DNA of 64,000 bases from Polyangium mundeleinium (GTDB lineage Bacteria > Myxococcota_A > Polyangia > Polyangiales > Polyangiaceae): NCBI RefSeq assembly GCF_028369105.1, contig NZ_JAQNDO010000001.1, positions 4,494,501-4,558,500 on the forward strand, read 5' to 3'. The notes beneath the pieces were generated by a model, which saw only the letters and a list, made by a program, of their open reading frames with translations, was not told where the DNA came from and made no database searches. The translations under genes and the position numbers were made by a program. Below, one piece after another: positions 21,501 through 56,800 of the stretch; position 1 is the stretch's first letter, and every line of letters begins with the position of its first letter.

Positions 21501-21692
21501 ATGCGTCGCCTCCGCTCCGCCTCGCTGTTCGTCGCTGCGTGCGTTTGTTCTTCCGGCTGTGCGGAGAGCGCCTCGAATCCGAAGACATCACCCAGCGCGG
21601 AAAGCGCGCCTGCGGCCGCCTCCGCTTCCGCCTCCGCTTCCGCTTCCGATCCGGAATCTATTTGCTACCTACTACCTAGGCAGCAAACCTAA
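21501..21692 (+). pseudogene. 5-prime fragment of SGNH-hydrolase lipoprotein gene, split by an integrative element
   Basis: ATG 21501 begins MRRLRSASLFVAACVCSSGC, a signal peptide with lipobox. A Ser/Ala-rich linker (AAASASASASASD) follows. The host-derived part ends near 21634. The remaining 19 codons (reading ICYLLPRQQT at the end) belong to the inserted element. The missing catalytic domain lies at 32524-33193. Joining 21501-21634 to 32524-33193 gives a continuous 804-nt frame of 267 aa. The fragment alone could still yield a short exported peptide but no enzyme. Confidence 0.88.
21599..21670. other. predicted attL of the integrative element
   Basis: The 16-bp core CCGCTTCCGCCTCCGC (21622-21637) recurs exactly at 32511-32526. 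To its right the element arm GGAATCTATTTG (21653-21664) is the near-perfect inverse of the arm at attR, CAAACAGATTTC. The arms are equidistant (about 18 bp) from a deduced crossover at 21634/21635, as expected for a serine-integrase attP. The host tract is low-complexity Ser/Ala codons, so the core match alone would be weak; the arm symmetry is the stronger evidence. Confidence 0.75.
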
Positions 21693-21794
21693 TGATTCCG
21701 AACACTTGCGACACACTGAGAGCGACCTGCTGCCCGACCAAATAGGCTGATCACGCGTTCAGTAGTAGCGCAGTCCGATCGAGAGGTCTCGACC

Positions 21795-23648
21795 ATGGAA
21801 GCCAGGACCGGCATCATCCCGAGCATGGGCGGCAAGAGCAGCAAGGGCGGCAAGGGTAGCAAGGCGCGTGGAACGGCGAAGGATCGCGCGCACGTCAGCC
21901 CCCCGCGCGAGGTCTCCATCCTCGAAGCGGCGCCCGATGCGCCCGCGGTCGTGAACGCTGGACCCACGATCGCGGATCCTTCCGCGGTTAGGCGTGTCCT
22001 CACGGTCAACGGTCCTCACGCGGGGACGTCGCGAGTCCTCGCCTATCGGCGCGTCTCGACCATGGAGCAAATGCGATCGGGCACGTCGCTCGACGCGCAG
22101 GACGAGGAGATCCGGCGTTACTGTCAGTACGCCCGCCTCCCGGATCCGATTGACTTTGAAGAAACGGAATCGGGCGGCGTCGAGTCACAAGAGAAACGGG
22201 AGAACATCGCAGCCCTGCTAAAGGCCGTCCGCCCGGGGGATCTCGTGGTCGTGGCGAAGCTCGATCGGTTCTCTCGCGATATCGTTTTCACGATCTCCGC
22301 CGTGCGAGACATCATCAAGCGGGGGGCGCGCTTCCTGTCTCTCGCTGAACGGTTCGACGCCTCTACCCCCGAGGGGGAGACGCAAATGGCCCTGTGGGCG
22401 TCGATCGCACAGATGGAGCGGGCCCGCATTCGGGAGCGCACGGAAGGCAATCGAAAGCGGCTCCGGGCCCTCGGGAAATTCGTAGAGGGACAGCCCCCGT
22501 TCGGCTACGTGCGGGCCAAGGGCGCGGACCTGCACGACAAGCCGCGACGATTGGACATCGATCCGATCAAGGCGCCCATCGTCCGCGAAATGTTCGACAT
22601 GTGCCTCGCAGGCAAGAGCGCGCGAGACATCGCGCTCCATTGCCAAACGACCTATACAGGACTCGCGATGTTCCGGACCGTATGGATCCTGCAATTGCTC
22701 AAAAACCGAATGTACGCCGGCCAGATCGCGACCACGCCAGTCCGGCCGGACAAAAACCGGCAGTTGACGCAAAAGCCCGCCGAATGGGTCGACGCGCACG
22801 AACCGATCGTTTCCCTGCAAATGTGGCATGCGGCCCAGCACGCGCTAGCGGGACGGCGCTCCTATGGGCGCAAGCCTCGCACGGACACGATCACCTCGGA
22901 ATGGTTGATCCGAGGGCTCGCCCGTTGCTCCATTTGCGGATCGATGATCACGGCCAAGCCTGCAAGCGAGAAGAATAAGCACGCGGGATATTACGTGTGC
23001 CGGAAGCGCTACGCGCCCGAGTTGAAGAATGCCACGCGCGAGCGGTGCATGGGGGCGCCCTGGAATCGGCAGGATGAGATCGATCCGAAGATCGAAAGGC
23101 TCGCGGCGCGTCACTTCAAAGCGCTAGACGGCCATCTGTCGAAAGCCCCTCCGCCATCCCCCCACGCGCCGAACTTCAGGGTGCAGCGGGCCAAGCTCGT
23201 AACGGCGCGGAGCAATCTCGTTTCCATGGTCTCCTCGGGCCAGTGGGGGATGGACGTGATCCGGGGGGAAGCGGCGCGGATCGAGCGCGAGCTTGCCGCG
23301 ATCGATGCGGAGGAACGGGCGCTCTCCGCGGAAGCTTCGGCCGATACGGTCGAGAATCGAAAGGGCGCGCTTTCGTGGTTGCGCTCGATCGTGGCGCAGT
23401 GGGGGACCATGGCCGTCCCTGCTCGGCGCGCGGCGCTCGGCGCGATGCTCGACGGGATCAAGATCGGCCCCGAGGGGGTCGCAATCGAATGGAGCGACGC
23501 CGCGACGATGGCCGTCCGATACGCGGAGGGGCGCCTACCCGATCCCGCGACGCTCGATCATGCGAGCGACGATCCGCGCCGCCCTGCTCGCCCGATGCTT
23601 ACGGGACGCGCGGAGCACGTGCCGGCGCTTCCGCCTGGAGACGCCTAG
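21795..23648 (+). CDS. large serine recombinase (site-specific integrase)
   Basis: 617 aa. An extra N-terminal tail of about 75 residues precedes the resolvase catalytic domain: YRRVSTMEQ with the nucleophile Ser, SLDAQDEEIRRYC, and AKLDRFSRD. A helix with MERARIRERTEGNRKR follows. The Recombinase domain begins near PPFGYVRAKG, and a zinc ribbon is visible as ARCSICGSM...YYVCRKR...RCMG. A coiled-coil-like region (about residues 470-520) and C-terminal tail complete the large-serine-integrase architecture. It lies about 160 bp from attL, the usual position. It should integrate and excise the element, with excision normally needing a directionality factor that I did not identify. Confidence 0.93.
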   Translation: MEARTGIIPSMGGKSSKGGKGSKARGTAKDRAHVSPPREVSILEAAPDAPAVVNAGPTIADPSAVRRVLTVNGPHAGTSRVLAYRRVSTMEQMRSGTSLDAQDEEIRRYCQYARLPDPIDFEETESGGVESQEKRENIAALLKAVRPGDLVVVAKLDRFSRDIVFTISAVRDIIKRGARFLSLAERFDASTPEGETQMALWASIAQMERARIRERTEGNRKRLRALGKFVEGQPPFGYVRAKGADLHDKPRRLDIDPIKAPIVREMFDMCLAGKSARDIALHCQTTYTGLAMFRTVWILQLLKNRMYAGQIATTPVRPDKNRQLTQKPAEWVDAHEPIVSLQMWHAAQHALAGRRSYGRKPRTDTITSEWLIRGLARCSICGSMITAKPASEKNKHAGYYVCRKRYAPELKNATRERCMGAPWNRQDEIDPKIERLAARHFKALDGHLSKAPPPSPHAPNFRVQRAKLVTARSNLVSMVSSGQWGMDVIRGEAARIERELAAIDAEERALSAEASADTVENRKGALSWLRSIVAQWGTMAVPARRAALGAMLDGIKIGPEGVAIEWSDAATMAVRYAEGRLPDPATLDHASDDPRRPARPMLTGRAEHVPALPPGDA

Positions 23649-24113
23649 CAGCCGCCCTAGCGGGCGCTCGGCCGCGGGAGGGCTCGGGGGGCTATCCCCC
23701 GCGCCGGAACGCATGGCGCCCCCTTCCCGCGCCGTCTCGCTCCGCTCGGCGCGGCAGACCTCGCGAGGCTCGACTCGTGCTCGACGGCGCGGCCCTCGCG
23801 GCGCTCGGCGCGGCCCTGGGAAGCTCGGCGCGATCGTGCTCGACGGCGCAGCCCTCGCGGCGCCCTCGACGCTCGGCGCGGCCCTCGCGGCGATCGGCAC
23901 GTCGTGCTTGACGCTACTAATGGCGCAGCCCTCGCGGCGCTCTCGACGCCCTGTGCCATGAATGAACGCCGAATAGCTCGACGAACGCCACGCCTTGCCC
24001 TGCGCATCCACTTGGAAAATCCGACTGTGCCCTACGATACACGACGGGTCCTCCTGCCTTCATGCGAGAGGGCAAGCTTGCCCGTTCGACAGGCTTCATG
24101 ATATCTGAAATGT
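23649..24113. repeat. GC-rich modular repeat block 1
   Basis: From about 23755 to 23950 the DNA is built from recurring words: GTGCTCGACGGCGCAGCC, CTCGCGGCG, CTCTCGACG and CTCGGCGCG. Several frames are open throughout because the words lack stops, so open frames here are not evidence of genes. A near-palindrome GGGCAAGCTTGCCC sits at 24070-24083. The last 100 bp before the HNH gene are more A/T-rich and probably hold its promoter. Confidence 0.8.
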
Positions 24114-25097
24114 ATGGCCAACGACCCTAACGAGTTCACGCAAGCTACGAAAGATAAACTTGCGCAGCGCGCTGGACACAAATGCTCGAACCCGTGGTGT
24201 CCGCAGGCGACGAGTGGTCCACACTCCGATGATACCAAAGCTGTAAATGTAGGCGAAGCTGCGCATATTCGTGGGGCTCGCCCCGGCTCTGCGCGATACG
24301 ATCCAAGTATGACACCCGAGGAGCGTCGCGTCATCACGAATGGCATATGGCTGTGTAGAATCTGTGCCAAGCTTATTGACACGGATGTACCACGATACAG
24401 CGTGGATTTACTTTACAAGTGGAAGCGCGACCACGAAAATACCCAAGCTGTGGCGATCGGTGCAGACCCGAGTGTTCTTGCGGCACGCGAACGCATTCTC
24501 AGGATGTTCGCCACGGAGAGTCCATCGGCGATACAGCTGGCTGTTGACAAGCCCGAGTTTTGGGAGTTTCTTCTCACGATAGAACTTATTCGCGATAAAC
24601 TGGGTCCGCTGCGACGACGACTGCATGAAATTGAGGAGGGGCTGACTTATCGTCCGATCTTAGTGCTTGACCTTGCAGAGGCGCCCAAATGGCTCAGCAC
24701 TCAATTTGCCAATCTTCTCTCGCTCGTTGCAGTGCTTGGTGCGATAGTAACGCAAAAGATTCCTTTGGCATGGGGACCGCCGGGCATACCGGGCGATACA
24801 GAGGCGATACTACGCGCCACTACCCTGTTACGCGATGCCTGCGAGGGCATTCTTACGTGGGAGGAAGATGTTGCCAAAACCCAGTTCCCCGATGAAATAG
24901 ACGATTTCCGCCAGAGAATGCGTGGCTGGACCCACGGACTATTTGCAGAGATGGAGAAGATCCCGGAGATAATGTCGGGACCGATAAATCAACGATTGCC
25001 TGGCACTCACGCCATCGATCTCGTATTCAAGGCGCCCGACGGCATGGAGGCGTTTGGACAAGAATTCGTCCGGCGATACAGGGAACTGCAAGATTAG
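24114..25097 (+). CDS. HNH-domain protein, candidate defence effector
   Basis: 327 aa, ATG 24114. Residues of about 18-90 form an HNH/zinc-finger nuclease module: HKCSNPWC (C-x4-C), then GEAAHIRGARPGSARYDP with the catalytic-type His, TNGIWLCRICAKLID carrying the Asn and a second C-x2-C. The remaining 230 residues are helical (VLAARERILRMFATESP onward) without a recognised domain. HNH modules with the NGIWLC..C..LID signature fused to variable C-terminal regions are frequent in bacterial defence loci; assignment to defence here is inference from that and from its place beside a TIR-like gene in a mobile element. Codons are markedly A/T-richer than the chromosome. Confidence 0.75.
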   Translation: MANDPNEFTQATKDKLAQRAGHKCSNPWCPQATSGPHSDDTKAVNVGEAAHIRGARPGSARYDPSMTPEERRVITNGIWLCRICAKLIDTDVPRYSVDLLYKWKRDHENTQAVAIGADPSVLAARERILRMFATESPSAIQLAVDKPEFWEFLLTIELIRDKLGPLRRRLHEIEEGLTYRPILVLDLAEAPKWLSTQFANLLSLVAVLGAIVTQKIPLAWGPPGIPGDTEAILRATTLLRDACEGILTWEEDVAKTQFPDEIDDFRQRMRGWTHGLFAEMEKIPEIMSGPINQRLPGTHAIDLVFKAPDGMEAFGQEFVRRYRELQD

Positions 25098-25323
25098 ATT
25101 GGAGGTCACGGATGCCCTCAAGCGTGCTTGACGGCGCAGGGTGCTCGCGCGCCCCTGCTCGACGGCGCAGCCCTCGGGGTGTGCTCGACGCTCGGCGCGG
25201 TTGTGCTCTGCTCGATGGCGAACATTCTTCCGTGCTTGGCTACACTCGCCCGCTGTGCCACGCCACGCACAATGGGCAATGCTCGGCAATGTCGTGCTTT
25301 CATGCAGAGGACGTGGTTTAGTG
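25098..25323. repeat. modular repeat block 2 plus promoter region
   Basis: Positions 25120-25215 contain the same repeat words as block 1 (GTGCTTGACGGCGCAG, CTGCTCGACGGCGCAGCC, GTGCTCGACGCTCGGCGC). The remaining 100 bp upstream of the TIR-like gene are unique and less GC-rich. Thus the HNH gene is flanked by repeats on both sides. Confidence 0.75.
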
Positions 25324-26352
25324 ATGAGCAACGAGAGATCGCGGATTACGATATTCTGGTCCTGGCAGTTCGACGCCGAGCCGGCAGTAAACAAACATTT
25401 CATAGGTGACTGTCTCGAAAAAGCAGCAAAAATTGTCAGCAAGGAGAGTGCGATAATTATATCCGTGGACAGAGACACAAGCGGAGTCGGGGGGACGCCT
25501 GCGATCGCAGACACCATACTCGCAAAGATTCGCAGCTCCGATGTGTTCGTATGGGATGCCACATTCATGACACTGAAGCCCAAGCCTTCGCCCAACCCCA
25601 ACGTCCTTTTCGAACTGGGCTATGCCTTCGCGATACTCGGCGAGGGTCGACTTATCGGCGTAATGAATACGGCGGGAATTCCAGAGAAGACGCCGCTCCC
25701 ATTCGACCTAAATCATCGACGGTGGCCAATTCGATATGAGCTATGGCCATCGACGCCCAAGATCGCGGGCCGTCGTATCAGCAAGTGGAACCCGCCAAAG
25801 CAAGACAAAAAGGCGGTACAGAAAAAACTCGTGGCGGGCCTTGTAACGGCGCTTAAACAGGCGCTCAAGGAGCCAAAGGGTTTTGCCCTGCGTGCGGATG
25901 TCGACTTGGAAGCAGCAAAAGCTCTTTGGAAGAACATTGACTCTGCATATCTGCGCGACTGGCACGAGAGACAAGCTGCTGATCCAAAATGGGAAACACG
26001 CGAGAATATCGAGAAGTTCTCGACCTATGTGCGCATTTCCGAGCGGCCAGAAAATCGCTTCCAAAACGAGGAGCTTGCCCATCTGCATGAAGAATTTGTT
26101 GCGTCGCTAAATGCATATTTGGCGACATCGGCAAATGAAATGGTTAGTCACGCGACAAGGCAGGGCACATACCTCCTCATCACGAAAACGCGCCATGATT
26201 TGGACCACCACGCTTATAGTGCCAGTTATGGGCGTCAACTTGACATCATGCTCGTTGCGGTTAAGCGCGTTTGGTCGGCGTGGAATTCGTATGTCGCTCG
26301 GCTCAGATGTTCGTATCCGGAGGTTACGTCGAGTGACCATCAGCCGACATAA
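25324..26352 (+). CDS. TIR-like nucleotide-binding/NADase-type protein
   Basis: 342 aa, ATG 25324 (a GTG lies one codon upstream). The N-terminal 170 residues fit a TIR-like alpha/beta fold: strand 1 ITIFWSWQFD, VDRDTSGVGGTPAIADTIL, SSDVFVWDATFM, then NPNVLFELGYAFAI. The NPNVLFELG segment corresponds to the loop of TIR-like proteins (compare the predicted nucleotide-binding TIR-like family) that carries the catalytic Glu for NAD hydrolysis. Residues 190-342 are mostly helical and may be a sensor or oligomerisation region. I infer an abortive-infection type effector; no cyclic-nucleotide synthase or Thoeris partner is adjacent. Codon use is A/T-rich like the HNH gene. Confidence 0.75.
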   Translation: MSNERSRITIFWSWQFDAEPAVNKHFIGDCLEKAAKIVSKESAIIISVDRDTSGVGGTPAIADTILAKIRSSDVFVWDATFMTLKPKPSPNPNVLFELGYAFAILGEGRLIGVMNTAGIPEKTPLPFDLNHRRWPIRYELWPSTPKIAGRRISKWNPPKQDKKAVQKKLVAGLVTALKQALKEPKGFALRADVDLEAAKALWKNIDSAYLRDWHERQAADPKWETRENIEKFSTYVRISERPENRFQNEELAHLHEEFVASLNAYLATSANEMVSHATRQGTYLLITKTRHDLDHHAYSASYGRQLDIMLVAVKRVWSAWNSYVARLRCSYPEVTSSDHQPT

Positions 26353-26860
26353 AGACGAAGCCACGGCGCAGCCCTCGGGGCGCTCTCGACGCTCGGCGCG
26401 GTCGTGCTCGACGGGGCGCAGCCCTCGGGGCTGCTTAGGCTAAGTGGCCCGCCGAGTGTGCTAAGTGGGCCGGTTGTGTCACGACACACCGAGCAGATCA
26501 GCACACTGACATACGGTGCGACGCTCGGCGCGATCGTGCTCGACGGCGCAGCCCTCGGACGGCTCGTAAGGCAAGGCGCGGCTCGCATGCGAGCCGATCG
26601 CGTAGCCCTCGGGGCGTGCGCGACGGCGCAGCCCTCGCGCGCCGCTCGGCGCACGCAAGCCCCCGCGGGCGCTTCTGGCTTGTAGCCGTGGGGCTTGCGC
26701 CACAAGCCACTTGTGAGCGCAAGTTCACAAGCCCCTCGTGAGCCACGCGGAACGCTTCCCCTTGACGGGCGCTCCCTCGCGCCGCTCGGCGCAGCCCTCG
26801 GGGCGCTCGGCGCGGTCGTGCTCGACGGCGCAGCCATGGCCCGTCGACCGCCACGCAAAC
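26353..26860. repeat. modular repeat block 3 with hairpin islands
   Basis: Repeat words occupy about 26362-26440, 26515-26570, 26600-26655 and 26780-26840. Between them are non-repeat islands with inverted repeats, such as TGTGTCACGACACA near 26475 and GGCTTGTAGCC/GGCTTGCGCC...CAAGCC near 26680-26720. No gene is supported in this stretch. Confidence 0.75.
26579..26596. repeat. perfect 18-bp palindrome
   Basis: CGGCTCGCATGCGAGCCG is its own reverse complement. It sits between two repeat words in block 3. It could be a protein-binding site or a cruciform/hairpin. Confidence 0.8.
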
Positions 26861-27050
26861 ACCGTGTTTTGTAGGGGAACAATTCGTTCGTTGCTCGGCG
26901 GAGCTTGTTTTCACGGGGTTTGCGGACGTTCGTTTGTCCGCGATTCGTTTTGGTCTGAACCAAACGAATCCCCCCGAAATCCTTTCAACAAGTCTTATTT
27001 CGGGCACTTAGGCCACCAATTGGGCACATGAAAACCCGAACTAATCACAA
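26861..27050. other. A/T-richer hairpin island
   Basis: A non-repeat stretch with several inverted repeats. GCGGAC...GTCCGC flanks 26921-26940. GATTCGTTT...AAACGAATC with an inner GGT/ACC forms a stem at 26942-26970. CCCGAAAT...ATTTCGGG spans about 26975-27004. A protein is not convincing here. A structured RNA or a remnant of another mobile piece is possible. Confidence 0.6.
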
Positions 27051-28656
27051 GCCCCTTGATGGCGCAGCCCTCGGGACGATCGGCGTGGTCGTGCTCGACG
27101 GCGAAGCCCTCGCGGCGCTTGTCAAGGGGTACGTGCGAGGGGGCGCATGTTCCTTGTCACGTTGTCTCGGGGGGGCTTGTCTCGCGAGACACACGGCCCC
27201 GAGACATGCGTGACAACACAACGGCGCAGCCCGCGGGGCGCTCTCGACGCTCGGCGCGTCGTGCTCGACGGCGCAGCCCTCGCCGCGATCTCGACGCTCG
27301 GCGCAGCCCTCGCCGCGATCTCGACGCTCGGCGCGGCCCTCGCGGCGCTCGGTGCGTCGTGCTCGACGTCGCGGTCCTCGCGGCGCTCGGTGCGTCGTGC
27401 TCGACGTCGCAGCCCTCGCGGCGATCTCGACGCTCGGCGCAGCCCTCGCGGCGCTCGGCGCGTCGTGCTCGACGGCGCGGCCCCCGGGCGCTCTCGACGC
27501 TCGGCGCAATTGCGAGGCGCACGGCGCAGCCCTCGGGGCGCTCTCGACGCTCGGCGCGGTCGTGCTCGACGGCGCGCCCCTCGCGGCGATCGGCGTGGCG
27601 CTGGGAAGCTCGGCGCGGTCGTGCTCGACGGCGCAGCCCTCGCGGCGCTCGGCGCGGTCATGCTCGACGGCGCGGCCCTCGCGGCGCCCGCCCTGGGGCG
27701 GCCCTCGGGCCCGCGCGTGTATCTCTGCCAGAGATACGCGGCCCTCGATCCACGCAACCTCACGAGATCCATACAGAAGGTCCGGATCGGCGCGATGTTT
27801 TCCGGTGCGGAAAACGGGGGGACGGCGCAGCCCTCGGGGCGCGCTTGACGGTCGGCGCACGTGCTCGGCGCGGCGCAGCCCTCGGGGCGTGCTCGATGCT
27901 CGGCGCACGCGTTCCGCCTCCCATTGCCGAACGAATCGCGCGCTTGCAGCTCCGCGCGCGATCGACGGCGCAGCTCTCGCGGCGATCTCGATGCTCGGCG
28001 CGGCCCTCGCGACGATCGGCGCGTCGTGCTCGACGGCGCGGAAAACGGGGGACGGCGCAACGGTCGGCGTGAGTTATTACAGCCCCCCGGAGCGACTTAT
28101 TACAAGTAAGAACCCGTGCGCATCACGCGGCGCGGCGCAGTCCTCGGGCCGCTCGGCGCGACGCTTCGGCGCGCGGCGCAGCCCTTGGGGCGCTTGGCGT
28201 GGCGCGTGCTCGACGGCGCAGCCCTCGGGCCGCTCGGCGCGACGCTTCGGCGCGCGGCGCAGCCCTCGGGGCGCTCGGCGTGGCACGTGCTCGACGGCGC
28301 AGCCCTCGGGCCGCTTGGCGTTCGGCGCAGCCCTCGCGACGGTTCGTGTCATGGCACGAAATCGAACCTGGCACGAACTCCCGCCGCTCGGCGTTCGGCG
28401 CAGTCCTCGGGCCGCTCGGCGCGCGCTCGGCGTGGCGCGTGCTCGACGGCGCAGCGCTCGCGGCGCTCTCGACGCTCGGCGCAGCCCTCGGGGGCGCTCG
28501 GCGCGGTCGTGCTCGACGGCGCAGCCCTCGCGGCGCACTCAGCGCTCGGCGTGGTCGCTCGACGGCGACAGACCCGCGGATCGTACGGTGCAAAGGTTCG
28601 TCCGATCTTACCGCACCCCTTCCCGGCGTTCGACCGATCCTGTAGGATGCTCCCTC
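27051..28656. repeat. modular repeat block 4 (largest array)
   Basis: About 1.5 kb composed mainly of the words GGCGCAGCCCTCGSGGCG, CTCTCGACGCTCGGCGCG, ATCTCGACGCTCGGCG and GTCGTGCTCGAC, in variable order, 27055-27700, 27830-28060 and 28120-28590. Hairpin islands interrupt it: 27154-27216, GTATCTCT/AGAGATAC at 27719-27737, and TTCGTGTCATGGCACGAA near 28345. Variants with extra pieces (for example GCAATTGCGAGGCGCAC near 27505) link it to block 5, where the reverse complement of that word recurs. All reading frames through it lack meaningful proteins. Confidence 0.85.
27154..27216. repeat. three nested inverted repeats (63 bp)
   Basis: Outer arms TTGTCACG (27154-27161) and CGTGACAA (27209-27216). 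Middle arms TGTCTCGGGG (27163-27172) and CCCCGAGACA (27197-27206). Centre TGTCTCGCGAGACA (27178-27191), itself a perfect palindrome. Nested symmetry of this quality within a repeat-filled region is unlikely to be accidental. Confidence 0.85.
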
Positions 28657-29919
28657 GTGTCTCGCCCCTTCGCCCTGGCCGTTCTCCTCCTACTTTCGCT
28701 TTCGGCGCCCATTAAGGCGGCTGAACCCGAAAAAACCGCGCAGTCGAAACCCGACGAACCTAAACCCACGCGCGCCAGCCGGTATCGTAAGTTAAGCCCC
28801 GAGGAGGAGGAGCGGTTCAAGGCGCGCGTTGCGGCGGGAGATCGGGCCCTCGAAGCGCGGCGGTTAAATGAGGCTGCCGACAGATATACGGAAGCCCTAA
28901 CGATTAAGCACGATCCTCGCCTGTCCGGACGCCTTGGGCTCGTGCTTTCAATGTTTCTGCCAGACCCGCAAACCGATCTCACAATGGCATTTGCGTTGCA
29001 AGTTGCGGTATCCGAGGCGGCCGGGATATCGTCGGCGGAGCGTAGGCAATTCTTTGAGGCCTACGAACGCGTGCGCAAGCGTGTCTGTCGGGTCGATGTC
29101 ATGGTCAACGATGTTGACGCCATGGTATCGATCGGGGTCGACAGACGCGTCCGAAGCGAAGGCGCGTTTTGGACGTTCCTATCGCCTGGAAAGACAGACA
29201 TCTCCGCGACATTGACGGGCCGTAAAGACCTCAAACAGACCGCCGAGTGTGTCGACGGAAAGTCGATTTTCCTGCAATTCGAGTTTCCCGAGCCTGACGA
29301 GGGTCAGCCTCAAATCATAACCATCGAGAAGGAACCGAAGGAACGACGTGTAATTGTGCGCGAAGTTGTCCGGGCGCCGAATGCCGCGCGAGAGCCCTTG
29401 CCCCTGGAGGCAGAGGCGCCGCCTCGCTTCAATGTTGGCATCGGCCCTGTAATGGTGTTCGGCGCGGCCCCCTCTGCGTCCCTTGGCTTCTCCCTTGTGG
29501 GCCAGTATCGGCGCCAGAGCTTTTCAGTCATGGCCGTTGCAAAAGGCGCATGGTCGCTTGGTGATGTTGTCAACCGGCCGATCGACATATTCTCGGCTTC
29601 TGCCGTTGCTGGACCGTGCGCGCACTGGCAATGGTTCCAGGGGTGCGCCCTTGCAGGGGCAACAATCTTCGATCATCGGCTCGGGCCAACCTCTGTATAT
29701 GGATTGTATACAGACACCCATGTTGTTCCGACGTTGGGACTTGGTGTCGGCGCGACGTACGGCATTACAAGCACCGTGTCCGCGCGCATCTTCGCGGATG
29801 CCGCCGCGCTGACCCGAGACGTGGTGGTTGATATCGCTGCTCCGGGTGGCACAACTCCAATTTGGCAAACCAATCGTTTTCTGTTTTCCGTGTCGGCATC
29901 GTTAATGTTCGGTCGGTAG
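28657..29919 (+). CDS. exported protein with probable C-terminal beta-barrel/outer-membrane region
   Basis: 420 aa. I start at GTG 28657, just outside the repeat array, with an AGGA about 10 bp upstream; it gives a signal peptide (VSRPFALAVLLLLSLSAPIKAAE). A charged helical segment (KLSPEEEERFKARVAAGDRALEARR) resembles a TPR-type repeat. The last 130 residues (RFNVGIGPVMVFGAAPSASLGF to FSVSASLMFGR, ending in an aromatic-containing strand) look like outer-membrane beta strands. The frame is open far upstream only because the repeat array lacks stops. First gene of a four-gene cargo operon. Confidence 0.75.
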   Translation: MSRPFALAVLLLLSLSAPIKAAEPEKTAQSKPDEPKPTRASRYRKLSPEEEERFKARVAAGDRALEARRLNEAADRYTEALTIKHDPRLSGRLGLVLSMFLPDPQTDLTMAFALQVAVSEAAGISSAERRQFFEAYERVRKRVCRVDVMVNDVDAMVSIGVDRRVRSEGAFWTFLSPGKTDISATLTGRKDLKQTAECVDGKSIFLQFEFPEPDEGQPQIITIEKEPKERRVIVREVVRAPNAAREPLPLEAEAPPRFNVGIGPVMVFGAAPSASLGFSLVGQYRRQSFSVMAVAKGAWSLGDVVNRPIDIFSASAVAGPCAHWQWFQGCALAGATIFDHRLGPTSVYGLYTDTHVVPTLGLGVGATYGITSTVSARIFADAAALTRDVVVDIAAPGGTTPIWQTNRFLFSVSASLMFGR

Positions 29920-29933
29920 GAAGGACGCTCGTC

Positions 29934-31085
29934 ATGTTCGCGGTTCAACTCAGGACAAAGCTCTTCGTTTCAATCGCGCTCGGCGCATCCGGCCTCGGCT
30001 CGGCGCTTGTCGTGAATGGCTGCACGGCAGAGCCTTTACATTCGACGCTTTATTGCCTCCCGGACGCGAGTCCGGATGCGGACATCCACGGGGATTGCTT
30101 CCCCGATGGCGGCGGTTCGATCGAGCCTCTATCCTGCAAAGCAGCCGGGGGCGAATGTGTCCCCATGGGGACATCCGACTTTCGCGAAAAGGCGGTCCTG
30201 GTATGGATGGGGGCCGAGGAGGAGGCGCCCGATTGCCCGGAGCGAGCCGAAGGCGATTTCTACACCGGCTATGCCGATCTGTCGGTACACGTTCAATGCT
30301 CGCCTTGCGCGTGCGGGCCTGCAACATGCAGCCTGCCGAATGCCATTACCGTGGATTCCGCTAGCTTCTGCCAGGGCGGCAACGTGACGAGCTACCAGGC
30401 TCCCATGCCGTGGGATGGAAGTTGCGTTTCCCCCGCTGTAATTCCTTCTGGCACCTTCGCGTCCATTATGCTCGCAGCGCCTACCGTCTCGCCGTGCGAG
30501 CCCATTGGCGACCCGATCCCGGAGTCTCCTTCCTTCGCGCCGCAGCCTGTCTCGTTTGCAAACGGAATCCACTGGGGTACGTTCGCGAAAGCGTGTCAAG
30601 GGACGGTCGATGGTAAATGCGAGAATTCCAACGACACTTGCTTGCCGAGCGCCGAGCCCCCGCCCCCGGGGTTTCGTCAGTGCGTGCAATATACGTTGCC
30701 TGTCGATGAGGAGCACTTGCCGAAGTGCCCCGAAGTATTCCCGCATCAATTCGTGTTCTATGGCGGAACCGAAGGGAAAGTGGAATGCTCGGCTTGCGAG
30801 TGCGGCGAACCGATTGGCGGACAATGCGCGGCGGCAGTTTCGGCTTACCAGAATCCGGTATGCGGCAGCCTTCCGAACCCGCTTTTCAAAGACGTGCCAG
30901 CGGCCCAGGGGCTCTGCATCGACTTCGCGGGCATGCCGCTCGCGCTTGGTGGGATGGAGGCGAAATGGATCAACAATGAGCCTGGGACATGCGAGCCAAG
31001 CGGCGGGCAGCCTGTCGGCGAAGTGAGGGGCGCAGACCCGCGCGTCTTTTGCTGTCAGGCACCATCCCCGCCAATGGACCAATGA
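29934..31085 (+). CDS. Cys-rich lipoprotein, mobile-element cargo
   Basis: 383 aa, ATG 29934 preceded by AGGAAGGACG. The hydrophobic N-terminus ends VVNGC, a likely lipobox. The protein is rich in paired cysteines (CSPCACGPATC, CSACECGEPIGGQC, FCCQ) and Pro/Gly loops, consistent with a disulfide-stabilised extracellular protein of two similar halves. The duplicated CSxCxCGxxxxxxC motif suggests internal duplication. No known family. It is 14 bp downstream of the previous gene. Confidence 0.75.
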   Translation: MFAVQLRTKLFVSIALGASGLGSALVVNGCTAEPLHSTLYCLPDASPDADIHGDCFPDGGGSIEPLSCKAAGGECVPMGTSDFREKAVLVWMGAEEEAPDCPERAEGDFYTGYADLSVHVQCSPCACGPATCSLPNAITVDSASFCQGGNVTSYQAPMPWDGSCVSPAVIPSGTFASIMLAAPTVSPCEPIGDPIPESPSFAPQPVSFANGIHWGTFAKACQGTVDGKCENSNDTCLPSAEPPPPGFRQCVQYTLPVDEEHLPKCPEVFPHQFVFYGGTEGKVECSACECGEPIGGQCAAAVSAYQNPVCGSLPNPLFKDVPAAQGLCIDFAGMPLALGGMEAKWINNEPGTCEPSGGQPVGEVRGADPRVFCCQAPSPPMDQ

Positions 31086-31120
31086 GAGCGCGTGACGGAC
31101 GACTAGGAAGGACGAATGCA

Positions 31121-31375
31121 ATGGTGTTTGCAGTTCATGTTCCGCGGTTTCTCGTGAATGTGTTCAGCGGAGCGGTGCTAGCCGTTTTAGCGGCGGCCTG
31201 TGGTCCCTCTCCACCAACCATTGACGACGACGCCTGTCATATGCGGATGGTGGCCTGTCAAAATCGGTGCGCGAAATCCGGCTTTAGCATAGCGTGCGAT
31301 CTCTGTTGCCGCAACCAGGCGCGCAAATGCGATTCGGACGGCGGCGACTATAGCTTCTCAAGCTGCGAGGAGTAG
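31121..31375 (+). CDS. small Cys-rich lipoprotein
   Basis: 84 aa, ATG 31121 with AGGAAGGA upstream. Hydrophobic leader and lipobox AAAC near residue 26. The mature part has the pattern C-x8-C-x3-C-x8-C-x2-CC-x6-C, similar to the next gene. Probably a small disulfide-rich surface protein. Unknown function. Confidence 0.65.
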   Translation: MVFAVHVPRFLVNVFSGAVLAVLAAACGPSPPTIDDDACHMRMVACQNRCAKSGFSIACDLCCRNQARKCDSDGGDYSFSSCEE

Positions 31376-31452
31376 TCAGGACTCGTGGAGCACGCGCCAG
31401 TCGAGCAATCCAATGGGCCAAGCGAGCCAAGGGTGACGAGGAAGGAAAATCG

Positions 31453-31746
31453 ATGAAACGACACCTTTTGCTTGCAGTTGGTGCAATCGCGCTTTTCGGA
31501 CTCCTGGTTCTTACTGCGGCTACAATGCAGCCTATAGGTCATCGAACGCGACAACGGACCGACGCCGCAGAGCCGACATGTGCAGACTATCAGGAGATTT
31601 GTTACAGTGGCTGCAATACGCGTGGGTTGGGCGCGGATTGCAGCGCATGCTGCGACAGGGTAAAAGCCGAATGTGACGCAGGAGGTGACTATATGAAGCA
31701 GGCCAAGAAATGCGGTGTCGCCTCGCCATCAGCGACCAAGCAATAG
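31453..31746 (+). CDS. small Cys-rich exported protein, paralog-like of the preceding gene
   Basis: 97 aa, ATG 31453 preceded by GAGGAAGGA. An N-terminal hydrophobic helix (LLLAVGAIALFGLLVLTA) acts as signal peptide or anchor. The mature part CADYQEICYSGCNTRGLGADCSACCDRVKAEC repeats the Cys spacing of the 84-aa protein upstream, pointing to duplication. It is the last gene before repeat block 5. Confidence 0.65.
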   Translation: MKRHLLLAVGAIALFGLLVLTAATMQPIGHRTRQRTDAAEPTCADYQEICYSGCNTRGLGADCSACCDRVKAECDAGGDYMKQAKKCGVASPSATKQ

Positions 31747-32410
31747 CGCGCCCCGAGGGCTGCGCCGTGCGCCTCGCAATCGCCCCGACCGTCGAGAGCG
31801 CCCCGAGGGCTGCGCCCGTCGAGCACGACCGCGCCGAGCGCCCCGAGGGCTGCGCCGTGCGCCTCGCAATCGCCCCGACCGTCGAGAGCGCCCCGAGGGC
31901 TGCGCCCGTCGAGCACGACCGCGCCGAGCGCCCCGAGGGCTGCGCCGCGCCGAGCACGACCGTGCCGAGCGTCGAGAGCGCCCCGAGGGCTGCGCCCTGC
32001 GCCTCGCAATCGCCCCGAGCATCGAGAGCGCCCCGAGGGCTGCGCCGTCGAGCACGACCGCGCCGAGCGCCCCGAGGGCTGCGCCGCGCCGAGCACGACC
32101 GCGCCGAGCGTCGAGAGCGCCCCGAGGGCTGCGCCCGTCGAGCACGACCGCGCCGAGCGCGCGCCGAGCGTCGAGAGCCCCGAGGGCTGCGCGCCTCGCA
32201 ATCGCCCCGAGCATCGAGAGCGCCCCGAGGGCTGCGCCCGTCGAGCACGACCGCGCCAAGCGTCGAGAGCGCCCCGAGGGTTGCGCCCGTCGAGCACGAC
32301 CGCGCCGAGAGCGCGCCGAGCGTCGAGAGCCCCGAGGGCTGCGCCGTGCGCCTCGCAATCGCCACGAGCGTCGAGAGCGCCCCGAGGGCTGCGCCGTGCG
32401 CCCCGCAAGG
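31747..32410. repeat. modular repeat block 5, opposite orientation
   Basis: 665 bp with about 14 copies of the core CCCCGAGGGCTGCGCC alternating with GTCGAGCACGACCGCGCCGAG, GCGTCGAGAGCG and TGCGCCTCGCAATCGCC. These are reverse complements of the words in blocks 1-4. The array abuts the end of the Cys-rich operon and finishes about 25 bp before the new start codon of the truncated SGNH gene. Confidence 0.88.
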
Positions 32411-32434
32411 CTTCCGCCCGTGTTCGGAGGAACC

Positions 32435-33193
32435 ATGCAAATCCTGTTGAAGATCGCGCCGTTACTCCTCGCCCTAGCCTCAGAAACGGTACACAAACAG
32501 ATTTCGCTTGCCGCTTCCGCCTCCGCGCCCGCGTCCGCACCCGCTTCCGCCTCCGCTTCCGCGCCGCCTCCTGATTCCCGCCGCGCCTACATCGTCGCGG
32601 CGATGGGCGATTCCCTCACGGATGCCCGCTCCCACGGCGGCAAGTTCCTCGACTACCTCCACGCGCATTGCCCCGAGAGTCGATTCGACAATTACGGCAT
32701 CGGCGGACAGATGGTGAACCAGATGCACCGCCGCTTCGCGCGCGACGTGCTCGGCGAGCCTCCGCCTTCGGACAAACCGGCGTACACCCATGTCATCGTC
32801 TTCGGCGGCGTGAACGACCTTTACAGCGACGAGACGGCCTTCCGCACGCCCAAGCTCATCCAGAACGACCTCGCGGGGATGTATGCCCTCGCGAAGGGGC
32901 GCAAGATGCAGGTCGTCGCCTTGACCGTCGCGCCCTGGGGCGGTTTTTCCAAGTACTGGAACGACAAGCGCGCGGCGGCCACGACGCAGGTGAACGAATG
33001 GATCCGGGCGCGCAAGCCCGCGGGCGAGGTCGATCACGTGGTCGACGCCTTCGCGCTGCTCTCGTGCGGCGACCCGAACCGGCTTTGCCCCGCGTATGCA
33101 GCGCCCTTCAAGGACGGGCTGCATTTCGGGCCGAAGGGACACGAAAAGCTCGGCGAGGTGCTCCTGCGCGAGGTGTTCACGGATTGCCGGTAG
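32435..33193 (+). CDS. SGNH/GDSL hydrolase, truncated and re-headed by the integrative element
   Basis: 252 aa from ATG 32435, which lies inside the element and has GGAGGA at optimal distance. It encodes MQILLKIAPLLLALASETVH, a hydrophobic leader, and reads in frame through attR into the host Ser/Ala linker and the hydrolase domain. The SGNH blocks are complete: GDSLTD (catalytic Ser), YGIGG, FGGVND, and DGLHFGPKGH (catalytic Asp and His). So the catalytic domain is intact while its native lipoprotein signal is stranded at 21501. Whether the new leader exports the enzyme is open; it lacks a lipobox Cys. The 3-prime end overlaps the convergent prolyl aminopeptidase gene by 17 bp. Confidence 0.82.
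   Translation: MQILLKIAPLLLALASETVHKQISLAASASAPASAPASASASAPPPDSRRAYIVAAMGDSLTDARSHGGKFLDYLHAHCPESRFDNYGIGGQMVNQMHRRFARDVLGEPPPSDKPAYTHVIVFGGVNDLYSDETAFRTPKLIQNDLAGMYALAKGRKMQVVALTVAPWGGFSKYWNDKRAAATTQVNEWIRARKPAGEVDHVVDAFALLSCGDPNRLCPAYAAPFKDGLHFGPKGHEKLGEVLLREVFTDCR
32487..32560. other. predicted attR of the integrative element
   Basis: Contains the element arm CAAACAGATTTC (32494-32505), the core CCGCTTCCGCCTCCGC (32511-32526) and host Ser/Ala codons beyond. The deduced crossover at 32523/32524 is 18 bp from the arm, matching attL. GGTA (32488-32491) mirrors TACC (21666-21669) at attL, offset by one base. Confidence 0.75.
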
Positions 33194-56287: not shown

Positions 56288-56370
56288 GCGTTCCGTTCTC
56301 TCCGCCGTGCTTGGCGTGGGTCGGGTAGCACGAAGGGGGAGGGAGGTTCAACCCCGGAGGCGGGGACCCT

Positions 56371-56800
56371 TGCAACCGTCTGGCGGGCATCCCGCAACCC
56401 TCTCCAGGACCGTCGCAACCGTCTGGCGGGCATCGTGCGACCCTCTCCAGGACCCTTGCAACCGTCTGGCGGGGCTCCTGCAACCCTCTTCAGGACCCTT
56501 GCAATTGTGTTCCGGGTATCTTGCGACCCTCTCCGAGACGCTCGCAACGGTCTGCCAGGTATCCTGCGACCCTCTCCAATGACGCTCGCAACGGTCTGCC
56601 AGGTATCCTGCGACCCTCTCCAATGACCCTTGCAACGGTCTGCCAGGCATCGTGCGACCCTCTCCAGGACCCTTGCAACGGTCTGCCAGGCATCCTGCGA
56701 CCCTCTCCAGGACCCTTGCAACGGTCTCACGGGCGTCCTCCGACGCTCTCCAGGACCCTTGCAACCGTGTGGCGGGCATGCTGCGTCCGAGGCATGAGCC
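56371..56800. repeat. 43-bp tandem repeat array, ten copies
   Basis: Ten head-to-tail units of exactly 43 bp begin at 56371, 56414, 56457, 56500, 56543, 56586, 56629, 56672, 56715 and 56758 (the last partial). The unit reads CTTGCAACGGTCTGCCAGGC followed by atcctgcgaccctctccaggacc, with a few substitutions per copy. No unique spacers, so it is not a CRISPR. The period is not a multiple of 3, which rules out a repeat protein. It ends about 50 bp before the ATG of the ATPase gene at 56851 and lies about 85 bp upstream of the fahA start on the other strand. Confidence 0.95.

Follow-up and report, generated by a model that had tools for sequence, protein, structure and literature searches.

A lipoprotein-type SGNH/GDSL hydrolase gene of Polyangium mundeleinium is split in its Ser-Ala linker by a 10.9-kb serine-recombinase element (approximately 21646-32514), and the right end of this element carries a start codon and a signal-like leader that are in frame with the 3′ part of the gene. 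Coordinates refer to the window, the whole 64,000-nucleotide stretch analysed [G000:C1:4494501-4558500], which is part of a 13.25 Mb genome (assembly 97.5% complete). The anatomy of the junction, its recurrence and its reading phase are solid. That the element-supplied start and leader give the cut gene new expression and sorting can reasonably be inferred at about even odds (probability approximately 0.5). The features of the interrupted gene and of the element are shown in Table 1.

Table 1. Features of the interrupted hydrolase gene and the inserted element (window coordinates)
Feature	Coordinates	Strand	Description and basis
Left remnant of hydrolase gene	21501..21692	+	Lipobox-like signal, Ser-Ala linker, 14 element-encoded residues DPESICYLLPRQQT, stop
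Left element end (attL), element arm CCGATCCGGAATCTATTTGCTACC	21646..21670	+	Identical arm sequence flanks Ser-Ala-type repeats at 5 left ends, L102-L106
Large serine recombinase, 617 aa	21795..23648	+	Pfam Resolvase 7e-28, Recombinase 7.5e-12; phrog_95 integrase
Cargo, HNH-effector-like protein	24114..25097	+	PADLOC PDC-M68A 6e-25, SAVED_HNH 1e-15
Cargo, TIR-like protein (weak)	25327..26352	+	CAP12-PCTIR_TIR 5e-4, below Pfam cut-off (scanned from 25141)
Cargo, 437-aa exported-looking protein, start not fixed	28606..29919	+	Homologues in L093, L086, L075, L072, L074
Cargo, 407-aa Cys-rich protein, precedes leader in same orientation	29862..31085	+	Homologues upstream in 7 other leader-bearing ends
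GC-rich repeat array immediately ahead of leader	31748..32396	+	Repeat analysis
Shine-Dalgarno-like GGAGGA	32426..32431	+	Sequence
Element-encoded start and leader, 26 codons MQILLKIAPLLLALASETVHKQISLA	32435..32512	+	Inside the element, whose shared right-end half-site stops at 32514
Right element end (attR), element arm ACGGTACACAAACAGATTTCGCTTGCCGC	32486..32514	+	29 nt, 0 substitutions among 8 leader-bearing right ends
Right remnant of hydrolase gene	32515..33193	+	Ser-Ala linker and SGNH/GDSL hydrolase domain; Pfam Lipase_GDSL_2 2e-18

From its start at 21501 the 5′ half of the hydrolase gene reads MRRLRSASLFVAACVCSSGCAES..., continues through a Ser-Ala run (MRRLRSASLFVAACVCSSGCAESASNPKTSPSAESAPAAASASASASAS as far as the foreign sequence) and passes into the element sequence DPESICYLLPRQQT before the stop at 21690-21692. 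Over residues 25-252 the right remnant shares 94% identity with its orthologue in G003, and the two parts form one uninterrupted gene in all five other genomes of the genus (G001-G005). The lipobox motif is canonical (LAGC) in G001, and the other genomes have a lipobox-like version. A search of G000 revealed no second hydrolase at E ≤ 0.001 in the 97.5% complete assembly.

The sequence-only reading had described a GGAGGA motif, ATG 32435 and a hydrophobic leader in frame with the truncated hydrolase, and this arrangement is confirmed, the frame being open to the stop at 33191-33193. The interval it gave (32435-32540) overshoots the element end by 26 bases. As the shared right-end half-site ends at 32514, the Shine-Dalgarno-like motif, the ATG and all 26 codons lie within the element. 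The frame reads MQILLKIAPLLLALASETVHKQISLAA-SASA... into the hydrolase, and the N-terminal region of the fusion includes an MQILL start, ALA and SETVHKQISLAAS. The arrangement exceeds what chance would give. The window contains 958 ATGs followed by 25 open codons, 11 of which equal the leader in hydrophobicity, several in contexts resembling real (lipoprotein) signal sequences; ATG 32435 is the only one of the 958 to combine such hydrophobicity with a Shine-Dalgarno-like motif. When the 48 nt after the ATG were shuffled by base, 37 of 20000 shuffles were open and equally hydrophobic.

A search for the right-end half-site GTRCACAARCAGATNNCNNTTGCCGC, allowing up to one mismatch and with repeated 120-nt contexts removed, located 37 right ends, distributed over all six Polyangium genomes and absent from the 102 other genomes of the family. 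An ATG is found exactly 80 nt from the end in nine of these, and eight of the nine encode variants of MQILLKIAPLVLALASETVHKQISLAA (two in G000, one each in G001 and G004, and four in G005); the ninth, L081, is not hydrophobic. A Sec signal peptide is expected to have a positive n-region, a hydrophobic stretch and small residues at −3 and −1 of its cleavage site; each of the eight leaders has one Lys, a 9-residue stretch of mean hydrophobicity 2.46-3.26 and a candidate cleavage site after ALA, SLA, TIA or LLA, and is signal-peptide-like as judged from its sequence. Since start and leader recur beside unrelated sequence in eight right ends from four genomes, they are a property of the element and not of the host, and the earlier proposal that they belong to the element stands. 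Four of the leader-bearing elements are complete on one contig (L085, which is that of the window, L086, L075 and L093), with recombinases 96-98% identical to the window recombinase. The right end L080 probably has its partner in L103/L155, a left end on a different contig, because both flanks are Gly-Ser linker sequence.

The last 14 nt of the right end, ATTTCGCTTGCCGC, are identical in 12 right ends, four of which lack the leader ATG (L073 at 8797, L084, L096 and L100) and count against the leader explanation. Small insertions shift the frame of related leader DNA in L078 and L088; such DNA is shortened in L095 and broken by a stop in L096. These four may be remnants or non-autonomous copies, as no recombinase is detectable at their loci.

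The sequence-only reading had named lack of conservation of the leader in related elements as an outcome that would refute it, and variants are instead retained in eight related right ends. As these ends were selected by their ATG, conservation of the ATG was not used as evidence. In the 51 nt upstream of the attachment arm, the eight leaders differ by 28 distinct substitutions, of which the first, second and third codon positions have 12, 4 and 12, with no indels and no stops. When the observed changes were placed randomly among positions with the same base (20000 trials), the minimum hydrophobicity was at least that observed in 0.7% of placements (0.007) and the mean in 1.4% (0.014). The substitutions therefore keep more hydrophobicity than random ones would. 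This test used eight of the nine right ends with an ATG at −80; L081, whose end differs, was omitted and would have lowered the hydrophobicity values. Absence of stops is unremarkable, occurring in 38% of random placements, and pooling 28 non-independent pairs gives a pN/pS of 0.47. The small number of second-position changes (4 of 28) was considered as a sign of constraint (binomial 0.021) but discarded at 0.29 against the base-matched null.

The eight leader-bearing insertions comprise two sense fusions to a verified gene, one antisense insertion, four that are apparently non-genic and one, L073, that is unassigned; besides L073 itself, a search for its empty site gave just repeat-like partial matches. 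The claim that the element replaces the start of a host gene thus extends to a second lipoprotein-type gene, but to just two of the eight insertions. The second, independent fusion, at L093 in G004, cuts a lipoprotein-type putative metallopeptidase gene in its Ser-Ala linker, with the right part in frame with the leader, so that both junctions have an in-frame element-encoded 5′ end. The left flank reads ...MAGCGAPPPAPPPPRASAAASASA-DPESIC in frame (extended, ...GWIVAMAGCGAPPPAPPPPRASAAASASASASAPAAASASASAS-DPESICYLLPRQQT), and on the right the leader is followed by SAPAPPPKSARAEA... (SAPAPPPKSARAEAAERVLFLATHL...) in a 325-residue frame that contains HEIFH and has a weak Pfam match to DUF5700, a putative zinc peptidase (4e-4, below cut-off). 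Orthologues in G000, G002 and G003 are uninterrupted, with a lipobox-like signal at the start. Neither fused domain, hydrolase or metallopeptidase, contains a stop or frameshift. In G005 (L077) another insert, approximately 2.7 kb long and with neither recombinase nor leader, interrupts this metallopeptidase gene in the same linker. The fragment there is likewise open, with upstream GTG codons, and an open frame after interruption is therefore not itself proof of rescue or expression. By eye, the G005 insert (L077:11090-14032) carries an RCC1-like gene, and non-autonomous elements of this kind, sharing the end, may account for many of the 37 right ends.

The antisense insertion, L080, interrupts the gene of an FG-GAP protein (6e-93) in its Gly-Ser linker. 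In G001 (L080/L155) it parts this protein from a C-terminal tail that by eye resembles a MYXO-CTERM anchor, and a membrane-anchored form would be lost here as well. At L072, L074 and L075 a short extension is followed by a stop and then by a gene with its own start. L086 adjoins an older right end and lies in repeats.

NNCCGC directly follows 31 of the 37 right ends, indicating that the crossover holds the register of a YCCGCY repeat. GCC-GCY-TCC-GCY is the Ser-Ala frame of this repeat and the leader lies in that frame; the attachment core fixes the register and so brings the leader into it. The opposite strand encodes Gly-Ser, which accounts for the antisense case. A sister recombinase in G001 (L153), 81% identical to that of the window, lies with right end L081, and the two appear to be one element across two contigs. 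Its target gene is tyrosine-recombinase-like, the pieces reading ...GLRHFAITSWLRA and MGVPVHVVQRMAGHKHLSTTQRYVHH... (PF00589 2.4e-4, below cut-off, first piece only). The sister element seems to have been retargeted to this gene, and its end core differs (GCCGG). The leader frame persists in L081 (MQIMWKIDRLSIRLAPKKVHKQIPLA), but without its hydrophobic stretch (0.57 versus 2.46-3.26). This one case is consistent with a leader tied to Ser-Ala targets.

Large serine recombinases were defined by Resolvase, Recombinase and zinc ribbon domains in one protein of about 450-700 aa. The window protein has the length and the first two domains above cut-off and is classed as one; its Zn_ribbon_recom match (1.7e-4, 22.4 bits) is below the cut-off of 25.3. 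By eye, the attP arms GGTACACAAACAGATTTCG and the reversed left arm GGTAGCAAATAGATTCCG are imperfect inverted repeats of each other, the pattern expected of a serine-recombinase attP. The attL arm sequence has diverged in left ends L107 and L109. No Ser-Ala repeat was found upstream of related recombinases in seven regions inspected from five genomes outside the genus (G008, G023, G114, G115 and G120), which therefore offer no independent comparison for target and leader.

The term prophage, used in the sequence-only reading, is not appropriate. Six element proteins scanned against PHROGs included no phage structural or lysis genes, the matches being the recombinase and an HNH-type hit, and the right-end half-site was not found in IMG/VR contigs. 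Cargo varies among elements and looks like defence, with the HNH effector and weak TIR protein in the window and, in L093:5107-7367, Abi_C and Schlafen/AlbA (pAgo-like PADLOC match). The 437-aa and 407-aa proteins both look exported, and the former has no Pfam family match. GC-rich repeats at 23736-28551 are related to the array ahead of the leader, in opposite orientation, with inverted pairs of up to 106 nt.

In every one of the eight leader-bearing right ends the leader is preceded by a co-oriented homologue of the 407-aa gene, and in six of the eight, including the window, by a homologue of the 437-aa gene; L073 and L080 are near contig ends. Terminator-like sites were absent from 31000-32520 of the window and from 480 nt around the L072 end, and a simple scan, a weak test in this phylum, found no sigma-70-like promoter near the leader. 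Given the conserved gene pair and the lack of a terminator-like site in these regions, read-through from the pair is possible.

These features suggest a route by which the cut gene could be kept in use. The serine recombinase integrates the element into YCCGCY hexanucleotide repeats, which supply the Ser-Ala linker codons of exported proteins on one strand and Gly-Ser linker codons on the other, and the right end brings a conserved ribosome-binding site, an ATG and the signal-peptide-like leader. Recombination fixes the repeat register at the crossover and so sets the leader in the Ser-Ala frame. On sense landing in a Ser-Ala linker, the 5′ half retains the lipoprotein signal and stops soon inside the element, and the 3′ half acquires the new start and leader. 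The fusion would be transcribed, probably via read-through from the upstream gene pair, and translated; the protein would then leave the cytoplasm in a soluble or inner-membrane form that carries no lipid. Its production and the loss of the lipid anchor, which the sequence-only reading proposed, are thus predictions, as is its export. In a stronger form, which is less likely than not, selection would have made the leader a portable export signal suited to its target, and the fixed repeat phase would let it re-sort every sense insertion so that the lipid anchor is lost and export kept. Site-specific recombination would then re-address proteins with their catalytic domains intact, the recognised Ser-Ala linker codons sitting just behind membrane anchors.

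It is possible, though doubtful, that the leader serves the element itself. After excision as a circle, the frame that opens at the ATG would continue through the rejoined attachment site, enter the left end (…SLAA…DPESICYLLPRQQT stop) and end approximately 100 nt before the recombinase start, forming a short cistron or a regulatory leader of the recombinase, with in-frame host-gene fusions as by-products. This frame is read from the two element ends. All eight left ends have a short tail open in the same frame, then a stop, the distance between codon GAA and the recombinase ATG staying at 140-141 nt, and the leader is present regardless of the flank, both of which favour a role in the circle. 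However, the left-end codons overlap the attachment arm and their conservation has another cause. The sister L081/L153 would form a like frame but has lost the hydrophobic stretch, and this single case (n = 1) makes it less likely that the circle requires a hydrophobic peptide.

Simple inactivation of the hydrolase is unlikely; the fusion would then be a recent pseudogene in GC-rich DNA, with the ATG, the Shine-Dalgarno motif and the hydrophobicity as functionless leftovers. Conservation of the leader over eight right ends with hydrophobicity retained argues against this, as does the singular combination of hydrophobicity and Shine-Dalgarno-like motif at ATG 32435 among the open ATGs of the window. 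It is favoured by the leaderless interruption of another gene that is equally open, by the four of eight leader-bearing insertions that look non-genic, and by the polarised changes on the G000 hydrolase branch (3 synonymous, 4 nonsynonymous; 12 and 3 in the sister G003), which hint at relaxed constraint on few changes. For the metallopeptidase, synonymous and nonsynonymous changes number 28 and 9 in G004, 7 and 3 in the leaderless G005, and 16 and 5 and 10 and 4 in the uninterrupted G000 and G003, and the host frames appear to stay open and constrained (G004 branch, 28:9). As the insertions are undated, polarised changes neither prove nor exclude function of the fused pieces.

Whether such an arrangement is unusual, as had been claimed, depends on the part considered: this is fair for the signal-like leader, but elements that supply a new N-terminus are already known. 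Among these are the dusA-specific elements, whose integrases are of the tyrosine type. IMEVchUSA3 and other dusA-specific integrative elements split the gene near its 5′ end (PMC8409611; see also PMC4482086), and supply new 5′ coding sequence and a promoter, the latter shown via a lacZ fusion (PMC8409611). They have one fixed target gene and give it a new N-terminus of 35 residues with 61% identity to the original (PMC8409611), whereas the Polyangium element, known from its sequence alone, enters different target genes with a common repeat and its leader is unrelated to the sequence it replaces. The SXT integrative conjugative element in prfC likewise has a single target gene, which encodes a cytoplasmic protein without a signal sequence (PMC8409611). 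Multi-targeting large serine recombinases, related forms of which enter different genes, are also known (PMC10083194). The accessible part of that paper gives short T/A-rich sites and does not mention a target-gene leader, unlike the Polyangium site, which is a coding hexanucleotide repeat. Multi-targeting is defined there by recombinases that, grouped at 90% identity, have more than three clusters of target genes (PMC10083194); recombinases 96-100% identical occupy five sites here, just three of them in recognisable genes. No earlier description of this element or of a recombinase-supplied signal sequence was found in open-licence PMC papers, which is not proof of absence, and one signal-like leader for different linker-bearing exported genes is not described as far as that literature was searched.

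If the fusions are made and exported, the element would lower the cost to its host by bringing a single all-purpose leader, compatible with every gene whose linker is suitable. Elements in dusA and prfC restore the original gene; the Polyangium element would not, and the enzyme may still be made but go to a different place. Target choice, reading-frame phase and protein sorting would be joined in one junction, and a natural recombinase would have a Ser-Ala coding repeat as its attachment site. Elsewhere in the window, 56364-56785 is a tandem array of approximately ten 43-bp units GGACCCTTGCAACGGTCTGCCGGGCATCCTGCGACCCTCTCCA that is unrelated to the element.
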